From the NCBI GenBank assembly GCA_013203595.1, contig JABMNT010000065.1, forward strand, positions 1-64,000: a DNA stretch of 64,000 bases, read 5' to 3'. The DNA comes from Rhodospirillales bacterium (lineage in GTDB: Bacteria > Pseudomonadota > Alphaproteobacteria > Rhodospirillales > Casp-alpha2). Made by a program: the position numbers and the translations under genes. The notes beneath the pieces were generated by a model, which worked only from the letters and a program-made list of their open reading frames with translations, was not told the DNA's origin and searched no databases. Below are positions 51-21,431 of the stretch, piece by piece (the stretch's first letter is position 1; every line of letters starts with the position of its first letter).

Positions 51-291
51 ACCCAGCCCGTTAATCTTAAGAGCTAATATAATGCAAGTTACCGCGTCAG
101 CGGTTTAGTCCACCTGGCCCACAGCGGAATTCATAGATGTACAATAAATAAGGCCGTTTTAGAGGGCAGAACGGACAAGATGGCCGTAGGCGTTGTCTGA
201 TTGATCAGTAAAATCTAAACCGTTCAATTTATTCAGTTAAAATTACGGTTTATGAGGAAAAACGACAGTAGGAAAGTATAAATAGAAATTT

Positions 292-320
292 TTAAGACTG
301 TTGAGATTGAGCTATATACT
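292..320 (+). promoter_or_regulatory. Possible sigma-70-type promoter of the DLH-mtn operon
   Basis: TTAAGA (292-297) and TATACT (315-320) are separated by 17 bases. The -10 matches five of six consensus positions and the -35 four of six. Transcription from it would give a leader of roughly 125 bases that contains the UACG hairpin. This is a pattern match only. Confidence 0.35.
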
Positions 321-351
321 ATTGTGGGGACATAAGATCGTCCGCAGTTTG

Positions 352-369
352 TTAATTCTACGGAATTAA
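352..369 (+). repeat. Seven-base-pair hairpin with UACG tetraloop
   Basis: TTAATTC (352-358) and GAATTAA (363-369) are perfect inverted repeats around TACG. As RNA this is a C(UACG)G loop, of the extra-stable UNCG class. It lies in the predicted leader about 85 bases before the DLH start. It could stabilise the 5' end or mark a processing site; the role is unknown. Confidence 0.5.
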
Positions 370-454
370 TCTTCCTCGCAGATTTGTATCCCCTTTATCC
401 CGGGCCCCATCCGTCCTAATCTGACCGCCGATCAATCAAACGGGAGGATATATC

Positions 455-17343: not shown

Positions 17344-17502
17344 ATGTCCGAACAACCCAGTGTTACTGTACAACAGGAGATAAAAGGATTTCTGTTTATC
17401 ACGGCAGTCCTGATTCCCGCCTTGGCCGTTGCGCTGGTGGGGGGGTATGGTTTCGCGATCTGGATTTATCAGATGTTGGTGGGCCCTCCGGGAGTCTCCT
17501 GA
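17344..17502 (+). CDS. napE: Periplasmic nitrate reductase small membrane subunit NapE
   Basis: A 52-residue protein with a soluble N-terminus and one transmembrane helix (about 13-40), the size and form of NapE/TorE proteins found at the head of alphaproteobacterial nap operons. The motif QEIKGFLFITAVLIPALAVALVG-type helix is typical in character. The start at 17344 follows GAGGAAGCGAG. Its role in nitrate reduction is not settled in any organism. napD begins 40 bases downstream. Confidence 0.88.
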   Translation: MSEQPSVTVQQEIKGFLFITAVLIPALAVALVGGYGFAIWIYQMLVGPPGVS

Positions 17503-17542: not shown

Positions 17543-17845
17543 ATGAAAAACCGTTCTGTTTCGCGTCATGTTGCTTCCCGACGTGACTTTTTAAAAGCGA
17601 AGTCATCGCCGTCGATCATCGCCAGTCTGATGGTGCAGGCGCGACCGGAACATATTCCGGCCCTGACACCGGAACTGAATGCCATTGAAGGTGTTGAGGT
17701 TCATGCCAGCGCGGATACCGGGCGCATGGTTTTGACAATCGAAGCCATGGATGATCAGCACTTTATGGGTTTGTTTGATGCTGTTCAGGGGCAAAAACAC
17801 GTCATAAATGCGCAGCTGGTTTATCACCAGATCGAGGATATATAG
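17543..17845 (+). CDS. napD: NapA signal-peptide chaperone NapD, with a Tat-like N-terminus
   Basis: A 100-residue cytoplasmic chaperone that holds the NapA twin-arginine signal until cofactor insertion is complete. Residues 24-100 carry the NapD ferredoxin-like fold pattern ([15 protein letters not shown], then [19 protein letters not shown]). Ahead of it is an extra stretch of about 20 residues containing SRRDFLK (12-18), which looks like a Tat consensus and resembles the SRRDYIK of NapA itself, though no hydrophobic core follows. It stops one base before napA begins. Confidence 0.92.
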
Positions 17846-17846
17846 A

Positions 17847-20378
17847 ATGACAAAGAAGACATCTGATAAATCCCTCCTGCCAACCATAAGCCGGCGCGAT
17901 TATATAAAAGCCAATGCGATCGCGGCGGCAGCGGCGGCTGCCGGGATAGCTGTTCCTGCTTCAGCGGCGAACCTTGTGACGGACAAGAGCAAAACCCAGC
18001 TGACCTGGTCAAAAGCGGCATGCCGGTTCTGTGGAACAGGTTGTTCGGTCATGGTGGGGACCAAGCAAGGCCGCGTCGTCGCGACGCACGGCGACGTTAA
18101 ATCGGAAGTGAATCGCGGCCTCAATTGTGTCAAAGGATACTTCCTGTCCAAAATCATGTACGGCAAGGATCGCCTGAAAACGCCCCTGCTCAGAATGAGC
18201 AATGGAAAGTACGATAAGAACGGTGACTTCACGCCTGTCTCCTGGACACAGGCCTTTGATATAATGGCTGAAAAATGGAAGGCCGCGATCAAGGAAAAAG
18301 GCCCGGAATCCGTTGGTATGTTCGGTTCCGGACAATGGACCGTCTGGGAAGGATATGCGGCGGTGAAGTTGATGAAGGCCGGGTTCAGGTCCAACAACAT
18401 AGACCCGAATGCGCGTCACTGTATGGCATCGGCCGTTGGCGGGTTCATGCGGACCTTCGGCATTGATGAGCCCATGGGCTGTTATGATGATCTGGAAGCT
18501 GCGGATGCCTTCGTGCTCTGGGGCTCAAATATGGCGGAAATGCATCCGATCCTGTGGACCCGCATCACTGACCGCAGGCTGAGCGCGCCGCATGTAAAGG
18601 TCGCCGTTCTGTCTACCTTCGAACATCGTTGCTTCGACCTGGCGGATAACGGCATGGTTTTCACGCCGCAAACAGATTTGGCCATTCTCAATTTCATTGC
18701 CAATTACATCATCCAGAACGGGCATGTGAATGAGGACTTTGTCGCCAAACATACCAACTTCAGGCGCGGAAACACTGATATTGGTTACGGTCTTCGCGAT
18801 GAACACCCGCTTCAACAAAAAGCCAAAAACGCCGATAAAGCCGGTGGGTCGCAACCCATGAGTTTCGAGGATTATGCGAAGTTTGTCAGTGATTATGATG
18901 TTGAAAGCGTCTCTAAATTATCCGGAGTTCCGGAAAAACAACTGATTGAGCTGGCGAAACTATACGCGGACCCGAAAATAAAGGTCATGTCGCTTTGGAC
19001 CATGGGCTTCAACCAGCACACCCGTGGGGTATGGGCAAACAATCTTGTCTACAATATTCATTTGTTGACGGGCAAGATTTCCGAACCCGGAAACAGCCCG
19101 TTTTCCCTGACAGGGCAGCCGTCAGCCTGTGGTACGGCACGCGAAGTGGGGACGTTTTCCCATCGGCTTCCCGCAGATATGGTGGTTACTGACCCTAAAC
19201 ACCGGGCTTTTGCAGAAGATGTCTGGAAACTGCCCGAGGGCACGATTCCGGCAAAACCCGGTCTGCATGCCGTTGAACAGAACCGCGCGCTTAAGGATGG
19301 CAAGCTCAACGCCTATTGGGTGCAGGTAAACAACAATATGCAGGCCGCCGCCAATATGATGGAGGAAACCCTGCCGGGCTATCGCAACCCGGACAATTTC
19401 ATTGTTGTATCCGATGCCTACCCGACGGTTACGGCACAGGCCGCCGATCTTATTCTGCCTACTGCCATGTGGGTCGAAAAAGAGGGTGCCTATGGCAACG
19501 CTGAGCGCCGTACCCAGTTCTGGCATCAGTTGGTTGATGCGCCGGGTGAAGCCAAGTCGGATCTATGGCAACTCGTTGAATTTTCAAAACGCTTCACGAC
19601 CGAAGACGTCTGGTCTGCCGACGTGCTCGAAAAAAATCCGGCGTATAAGGGCAAAACATTATATGAGGTTCTGTTCAAGAACGGCCAGGTCGATAAGTTT
19701 CCCTTGTCCGAAGCGTCTGACCAATACGCCAACCACGAAAACGAGGCCTTCGGTTTTTATATCCAGAAAGGACTTTTCGAAGAATATGCAACCTTTGGCC
19801 GGGGCCATGGTCACGATCTGGCACCGTTCGAGGTTTACCATAAGGAGCGCGGGCTTCGCTGGCCCGTCGTTGATGGCAAAGAAACCCGTTGGCGGTTCAA
19901 GGAAGGGCAGGACCCTTATGTTGAAAAAGGTAAGGACTTCCAGTTTTATGGCAAGAAAGACAACAGGGCTGTCATCTTCGCCTTGCCCTTTGAGCCAGCG
20001 GCAGAATCTCCCGATGAAGAGTATGATCTGTGGTTATCAACCGGCCGGGTGATTGAGCACTGGCATTCCGGCTCCATGACCCAACGCGTCCCGGAGCTAT
20101 ACCGGGCTTTCCCGAATGCGGTTGCTTTCATGCACCCGGATGATGCTGCAGCCAGAGGGCTGAAGCGGGGCTCGGAAATTCGGGTTATTTCCCGACGCGG
20201 CGAAATCCGGACCCGTGTCGAGACGCGGGGCCGCAACAAACCGCCAAAGGGGCTGATCTTTGTTCCGTGGTTTGATGCCAGCCAGTTGATTAACAAGGTT
20301 ACGCTGGACGCCACCGATCCAATTTCCCAACAGACGGATTACAAAAAATGTGCCGTCAAGATTATTGAAGTGGTCTAG
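17847..20378 (+). CDS. napA: Periplasmic nitrate reductase catalytic subunit
   Basis: The 843-residue Mo-bis-MGD enzyme that reduces nitrate to nitrite. A Tat signal (SRRDYIK at 15-21, then an alanine-rich core ending near VPASA) leads to the [4Fe-4S] site CRFCGTGC (Cys59, 62, 66) with Cys94 in GLNCVKG. The Mo-ligand Cys192 is in ARHCMASAV. The C-terminal molybdopterin domain ends with [20 protein letters not shown], as expected. I chose ATG 17847, which gives a standard signal peptide and directly follows the napD stop; an upstream in-frame codon at 17808 lies inside napD. Confidence 0.97.
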
Positions 20379-20382
20379 GGTT

Positions 20383-20829
20383 ATGCAAAATCCTGTCAAA
20401 AAAATGCTGGTTGCTCTGCTCTGTGTGGGGCTGGGGTCCATTGCCGTTGCCGGCGAGCCGATCACGACCCTGCGCGCCGGGGCACTGGAGAGCAATTCAC
20501 CGGCCCCGGCCATGGCGAAACCGATCAATTCTGATATTCGTGAAATTCGCAACTTTCCCGAACAGCCGCCGACAATCCCGCATAATATCAGAGGCTACCA
20601 GATTGATCTCAATACAAACAAATGCCTCAGTTGCCACAGCCGGAAGGCAGTCGGGCAGTCACAGGCCCCCATGGTCAGCGTTACGCATTTCATGGACCGG
20701 GACGGTCAGGTGCTGTCTGCGGTTACCCCCAGGCGGTACTTTTGTACCCAGTGCCACGTGCCTCAGCATGACATCAAGCCGCTGGTTGAGAACGAATTCA
20801 TCGATGCCGATGATCTGACCAATAAATAG
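20383..20829 (+). CDS. napB: Periplasmic nitrate reductase dihaem cytochrome c subunit
   Basis: A 148-residue periplasmic electron carrier to NapA. A Sec signal ends near AVAGEP (residue 24), and two c-haem motifs are present, CLSCH (81-85) and CTQCH (121-125), with extra histidines for bis-His ligation (for example THFMDRDG and the PHNI segment). The start at 20383 lies four bases after the napA stop. It passes electrons from NapC to the NapA iron-sulfur centre. Confidence 0.96.
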
Positions 20830-20840
20830 GAACTTTAACT

Positions 20841-21431
20841 GTGATTGCAAAAATTGTTGCCTATTGGCAGTTGCTCAACCGCCCGGCCCGACATCTGAGC
20901 TTGGCCCTGTTAACGACCGGTGGCTTCTTTGCCGGCGTTATATTCTGGGGCGGATTTAACACGGCTCTGGAACTGACCAATACAGAAACATTCTGCATCA
21001 GTTGTCATGAAATGCGGGAAAACGTATTTGTCGAGTTAAAGGAGACAATTCACTATACAAATCGCTCCGGTGTTCGGGCAACTTGTCCCGATTGTCATGT
21101 GCCGCATAACTGGACCGATAAAATTGCCCGGAAAATGGCTGCTTCCAAGGAAGTCTGGGGCAAGCTGTTTGGTACCATTTCAACCCGGGAAAAGTTTCAG
21201 AGCAAACGGCTTGAACTGGCCCAGAACGAATGGGCCCGGTTTAAGGCCAACGATTCTCTGGAATGCCGAAACTGTCATGCTTTTGAATCGATGGACATTA
21301 CTCTGCAAAGCCCACGGGCGGCGGATAACCATACACGGCTGCTTGGAACGGGTGAAAAGACCTGCATCGACTGCCATAAGGGTATTGCCCATCAATTGCC
21401 CGATATGTCGAATGTCGAGGGTTGGCACTAG
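20841..21431 (+). CDS. napC: Tetrahaem quinol dehydrogenase NapC
   Basis: A 196-residue NapC/NirT family protein with one N-terminal membrane anchor (about 19-38) and four c-haem sites: CISCH (52-56), CPDCH (82-86), CRNCH (142-146) and CIDCH (175-179). It oxidises quinol and feeds NapB. Translation starts at GTG 20841 with TAGGAA eight bases before. It ends the napEDABC operon; napF, napG and napH are not here, so this is the NapC-dependent type of system. No clear terminator is visible in the 165 bases that follow. Confidence 0.95.

Follow-up and report, generated by a model that had tools for sequence, protein, structure and literature searches.

The NapD protein encoded in the window (the whole 64,000-nucleotide stretch of Rhodospirillales DNA analyzed here) carries an N-terminal twin-arginine tail, which our analysis has confirmed as real. 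Among the analyzed alphaproteobacterial nap loci, such tails occur only where there is no upstream napF gene, and the tail probably represents a NapF-type twin-arginine peptide that was moved onto NapD upon the loss of napF and kept for cytoplasmic docking in the course of NapA maturation. The twin-arginine motif is already known in NapF, while no mention of such a tail on NapD was found in the literature searched, which covered few subscription papers; in that literature the tail is undescribed.

The napD gene of the window and its tail

The nap operon of the window has the order napEDABC, according to the ORF list and the Pfam and TIGR matches, with all genes on the forward strand. The gene of the small membrane protein NapE (17344..17502; Pfam NapE, 76.1 bits) lies directly upstream of napD (17543..17845; Pfam NapD, 77.5 bits, residues 26-99), with 40 nt between the napE stop and the napD start. 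Downstream are napA, encoding the catalytic subunit and client of the Tat proofreading chaperone NapD (17847..20378; TIGR01706, 1605.8 bits), napB for a di-haem cytochrome c (20383..20829; Pfam NapB, 162.4 bits), and napC for a tetrahaem quinol dehydrogenase (20841..21431; TIGR02161, 315.1 bits). The ORF list contains no napF, napG or napH between napE and napC; no NapF-like ORF was found in the 1500 bases upstream of napD, and no NapF above the curated cut-off in the genome of the window (best E 8.2e-6).

The window NapD consists of 100 amino acids (translation of the ORF 17543-17845) and scores 77.5 bits against the curated PF03927 cut-off of 28. Its ferredoxin-like domain occupies 17618..17839 on the forward strand (77.3 bits in the genome search with PF03927) and is preceded by a tail of 25 residues (17543..17617, forward strand). 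The first-pass annotation had reported an extension of about 20 residues here; the extension stands, while its length has to be corrected, since the Pfam domain begins at residue 26. The profile match to NapD from E. coli (2pq4, 2jsx) also starts only after the tail. As seen in the translations, and as the same annotation had stated, the tail holds the motif SRRDFLK (residues 12-18; 17576..17596, forward strand), resembling SRRDYIK in the Tat signal of the client NapA (residues 15-21; 17889..17909, forward strand). AlphaFold models the fold of the window NapD with high confidence; the PDB entries closest to this model are 2jsx and 2pq4, NapD from E. coli alone and with the NapA signal.

A start downstream of SRRDFLK, named in the first-pass annotation as refuting its idea, is ruled out, since from codon 1 to codon 30, which is already within strand 1, there is no further ATG, GTG or TTG in frame. 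The ATG at 17543, with an in-frame stop three codons upstream, is the sole usable start. A terminator-like hairpin with a T run is observed within the tail codons (window positions 17565-17587); about one such site is expected from shuffles, and it is probably a chance occurrence.

The codons of the motif are kept at the protein level only. In the comparison of the window with a locus from the same genus (L244), eight of the nine codons of SRRDFLKAK (residues 12-20) differ, all silently, while the rest of the tail (residues 1-11 and 21-25) has three silent and 11 replacing differences (p 5e-4; for residues 12-18 alone p 0.006). The same pattern is seen in ten close pairs pooled (row L016 being used in two of them): 24 silent and five replacing differences in the six-residue motif, 44 and 83 in the rest of the tail, and 225 and 164 in the domain. 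Purifying selection keeps the R-R-x-[FL]-[LI] core of the tail. Chance occurrence of the motif is ruled out by this conservation at the protein level together with its distribution described below.

Distribution of the tail and of napF

The search for NapD covered three partly overlapping sets, 385 genomes from the class, 150 relatives and 398 genomes from the phylum, as well as plasmids (six of 22 plasmid records used). The loci were oriented and read upstream; 193 were collected, one of them (L079) being unusable, as its contig ends at napD. NapD matches below the Pfam cut-off and three just above it (34.6, 30.6 and 28.1 bits) were also left out before counting. The tail was defined as the pattern [RK]Rx[FLI][LIF] before NapD, and matches in L047, L121 (both napF-bearing) and L070, lying outside the likely protein, were excluded by hand. 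L246, L253-L255 and Paracoccus, found with tailed queries, were kept out of the table of 108 alphaproteobacterial loci.

In these 108 loci the tail is present in 23 (one of them, L087, having KR instead of RR), all among the 34 without upstream napF, and in none of the 74 with napF; the remaining 11 loci have neither. The association is strong (Fisher p 1.6e-15, uncorrected for kinship). The comparison of NapD N-termini across alphaproteobacteria that had been suggested in the first-pass annotation thus shows the tail as a recurrent feature. The accompanying guess that some other NapD and NapF proteins carry similar N-termini proved correct for both: beside these 23 NapDs, the N-terminal peptide of NapF matches a lenient pattern ([RK] followed by [RKATSLV]) in 116 of 128 napF-bearing loci, with 12 unmatched, RR itself being present in about nine tenths of NapF N-termini.

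Eight of the 11 untailed napF-less alphaproteobacterial loci also lack napE, so that 23 of 26 napE-type napF-less loci are tailed, compared to none of the eight lacking both genes; the three napE-type loci without the tail are L026, L052 and L190. In all 23 tailed loci, napD comes directly after napE, at a distance of 3-69 nt, while for napF behind napE the median gap is 12 nt (47 loci with both genes; the nearest start codon was taken as the start, and distances beyond -60..400 were omitted). Tailed napD occupies the usual place of napF after napE. Between napE and the untailed napD of L190 there is a frame which, judged by eye, resembles a decayed napF (PPRQGFLRKR ... NGVPAIGF).

Both states may occur in one genome: in G391, napD is tailed in L037, which lacks napF, and untailed in L071, which has it. 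The NapF search covered 17 tailed genomes, of which 16 have no NapF above the cut-off; G391 is the exception, its NapF belonging to the second nap locus, whose NapD is untailed. A search with a profile built from tailed NapDs returned 25 loci, including those of two gammaproteobacteria, Seongchinamella unica and HTCC2148, which have a tailed NapD and no napF in the stretch. Paracoccus denitrificans PD1222 and P. pantotrophus DSM 2944 have tailed NapDs (IQRRDILTGKLKQ) encoded on plasmids, and no NapF was found in their nap stretches; in two Nisaea species the tail contains SKRKILFG.

No tail was counted in the remaining 84 loci, which come from other classes (29 without napF, 55 with it), and all 15 napE-type napF-less loci of these classes in the sample are untailed. 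A rule of exclusion between NapF and NapD tails across all bacteria is thus ruled out, as other classes are napF-less and yet untailed. Because tail-less napF-less systems exist there, the contribution of the tail must be replaceable, and the tail itself not required.

Several other N-termini and ORFs were observed in the course of this comparison. A recurring NapD N-terminus of the approximate form M-R-x-x-x-F-[IVS], e.g. MRINRFI (L031-L033, L036, L038-L041, L043), occurs in loci that have napF and also in three that lack it, L032, L033 and L040; these three, having no napE, napF or tail, contain two further iron-sulphur ORFs downstream of napA, which are taken for napG and napH. The napF-less NapDs of L133, L148 and L149 (Cupriavidus necator H16 pHG1) start with MP(A)ARRAIPI, MPARRSIPI and MPTAKRAIPI; they were not counted as the motif and may be an arginine tail that is degenerate or of a separate kind. 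In L222, a strong NapF (172.8 bits with the HMM made here) is encoded on the opposite strand, upstream of napD. In L077, the ORF first flagged as napF is another iron-sulphur ORF (17.4 bits), which we take to be LutB-like.

The tail has been gained or lost repeatedly. On the NapA tree of 59 rows, hand-picked in the light of previous trees (all tailed rows, 26 with napF and six with neither), the tail label changes seven times, at least four changes being forced by starred branches; on other NapA trees it changes seven (197 rows, FastTree) and ten times (125 rows, quick IQ-TREE). A single clade of all tailed rows is rejected (p-AU 7e-61), and by parsimony gain and loss of the tail are indistinguishable on the NapA tree. 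A clear case in the 59-row tree is tailed L181, which adjoins napF-bearing L177 (96). Another clear case is given by the two tailed gammaproteobacteria, which group together (99) and adjoin napF-bearing L257 (91) in this tree, the nearest napF-bearing row varying between trees (L257 in two, L134 in one). Six independent pairs can be formed on starred branches. In two to five of them the members differ in napF, each time as expected, but with so few pairs significance is not reached (median p 0.125).

Origin and role of the tail

An HMM of the NapF N-terminus gives more than 5 bits to all 25 tails, to 69 of 191 NapA signals and to none of 169 untailed NapD N-termini. With medians of 12.8 bits for the tails (7.9 bits for the window) and 3.5 bits for NapA signals, it distinguishes all tails from untailed NapDs, whereas the distinction from NapA signals holds for the medians and not row by row. 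In the tails aligned at RR, position +6 is Gly in 16 and Ala in nine of the 25, and position +7 is Arg in 16. In NapF N-termini, Gly is found at +6 in 64% and Arg at +7 in 31%, while NapA signals have Lys at +5 (90%), Ala at +6 (65%) and Asn at +7 (51%), followed by alanines. The score of the short core (+2..+7) assigns 18 of the 25 tails to the NapF type and seven, including the window, to the NapA type, five of these more weakly; the window core scores -8.2 bits, as does that of its same-genus relative. The full-length profile score is positive, i.e. NapF-like, for 24 of the 25 tails and negative for L058, but it mostly reads the missing alanines, and so the shorter span and the NapF HMM are reported instead. 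By sequence likeness, the closest kin of the tails as a class is NapF and not NapA.

Thirteen of the 116 motif-bearing NapFs are short, with eight to nine cysteines (L011, L021, L029, L031, L036, L041, L053, L082, L084, L085, L088, L151 and L154; 12 with RR or KR, L082 with RA), and they look like stages from NapF toward tailed NapD. As annotated, the NapF of L274 (Cereibacter sphaeroides plasmid c, 2604-2999) lacks the RR peptide and begins at its first cysteine cluster; the start is perhaps placed too late.

The absence of a hydrophobic core after the motif, mentioned in the first-pass annotation, is a general feature of the tails. The median of mean hydropathy at +6..+12 is -0.57 in NapD tails and -1.07 in NapF, compared to 1.06 in NapA, and in the window the next hydrophobic stretch after the motif is strand 1 of the NapD domain. 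Judged from its residues, the tail is thus unlikely to be an export signal despite its twin-arginine motif, and the suggestion of a true targeting signal is not sustained, as NapF with its similar peptide is also described as cytoplasmic in the accessible text of PMC10609526.

The first-pass annotation had also proposed that the tail acts as a pseudo-substrate, mimicking the NapA signal in the groove of NapD itself until NapA displaces it. Such a mimic would silence unoccupied NapD or adjust its affinity. A fold that binds RR peptides and an RR peptide are indeed combined here in one chain, and such fusion of peptide and receptor would be natural; moreover, the window core is NapA-like by the above score. 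According to the accessible part of PMC3712460, NapD binds the NapA signal of E. coli via the second Arg, Lys four residues further and an alanine face, and of this epitope (R6, K10, A17) the window tail retains Arg and Lys, while the alanines are absent. In the tails generally this Lys is present in only four of 25 and the alanine face is mostly missing (on average 0.96 alanines at +6..+12, against 4.2 in NapA signals, among which the strings of L078 and L186 are visibly mispicked). The distance from the motif to strand 1 varies from six to 23 residues over 23 loci. AlphaFold did not place the tail in either of two distant members, the window and L254: in the former, residues 1-12 and 18-20 have pLDDT below 50, with a short helix modelled at residues 13-19, and in the latter residues 1-14 do. 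Such low confidence over most of the tail (19 rows) is weak evidence, and it argues only weakly against a tail held at one position in the groove. In E. coli two-hybrid assays, NapF, with its similar tail, reportedly binds NapA and not NapD. On balance, we consider the pseudo-substrate unlikely. Contact with the Tat receptor seems less likely still: the core-less motif would bind TatC weakly and bring the NapD-NapA complex to the translocase or delay export. The R-R-x-[FL]-[LI] that selection keeps forms the core of the Tat consensus, given as SRRxFLK in the accessible part of PMC3712460, but the hydrophobic region of Tat signals is absent from the tail.

As for the origin of the tail, it could have been born independently from the NapA signal, e.g. 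by copying of the first napA codons onto napD, without descent from NapF. The window and its same-genus relative, with SRRDFLKA resembling SRRDYIKA of NapA, are in line with this; still, many tails read like RRxLxTGR of NapF, given the frequent Gly and Arg at +6 and +7, and such an origin would explain neither why tail and napF exclude each other nor why tailed napD follows napE, so that it appears improbable. For the remnant of a gene duplication, suggested in the first-pass annotation, nothing was found in favour, and a napF remnant fits better. A wholly inert tail, either a functionless leftover of napF or a convergent basic stretch, has very little probability: some napF-less NapDs do without the tail, but the silent codon changes in SRRDFLKAK and in the ten pooled pairs are not those of a functionless segment.

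The reading that we regard as probable, a NapF-type peptide transferred to NapD, has difficulties of its own. The cores of the window and of six other tails score as NapA-like, three napE-type napF-less alphaproteobacterial loci and all 15 of other classes are untailed, and the double-arginine motif of NapF is reportedly non-essential for NapF-dependent growth of E. coli. According to the accessible text of PMC10609526, NapF acts as a maturation factor in the cytoplasm, where it complexes with NapA; some nap operons lack it, e.g. in Paracoccus denitrificans, and its role is an open question. In napE-type napF-less alphaproteobacterial operons, a sequence from the 5' end of napF, or one equivalent to it, would have been fused to napD more than once; we infer the direction of transfer to be from NapF to NapD. 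The tail would remain in the cytoplasm, selection retaining its R-R-x-[FL]-[LI] core, and would dock NapD on a predicted partner during NapA maturation before export, the same role being performed by the tail of NapF in operons that retain NapF. The putative partner is in the first place precursor NapA, followed by the NapD groove and, last, the Tat receptor; as the latter two are also rival readings, their odds overlap with those of the main explanation. Since NapF keeps the peptide, and NapD does so where NapF has been lost, a cytoplasmic role in NapA maturation is the most likely one.

More generally, and only tentatively, a short RR docking module may shift between Nap chaperones, residing on NapF if it is present and otherwise, in Alphaproteobacteria, on NapD. 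If so, it would constitute a second recognition of RR peptides prior to export, apart from Tat export and the own signal of NapA, and NapD could possibly be switched by its own tail. The nap operons without NapF are common, and the tail on NapD where NapF is missing suggests that the peptide is useful apart from the iron-sulphur clusters of NapF. That selection keeps it points to an as yet undescribed step in the production of periplasmic nitrate reductase prior to export, and the tail offers a small testable handle, e.g. in Paracoccus, on how NapA is retained until cofactor insertion is complete.

Comparison with known systems

The window NapD and NapD from E. coli (2jsx, 2pq4) have a common ferredoxin-like domain, with 33-34% identity by fold search, but the latter has few residues before strand 1 and no RR tail, in contrast to the 25-residue tail of the former. 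The Tat signal of NapA shares SRRD[FY][LI]KA with the window tail, while the alanine-rich hydrophobic helix that follows the motif in NapA has no counterpart in the NapD tail. NapF (TIGR00402) differs from the window NapD in having four tetra-cysteine [4Fe-4S] motifs, the window NapD containing no cysteine and matching only NapD in Pfam. At the same time, NapF shares with the tail R-R-x-[FL]-[LF], mostly with Ser before and Gly after it, and, as in tailed NapD, this motif belongs to the N-terminal region of a cytoplasmic protein for Nap maturation, which is often encoded right after napE.
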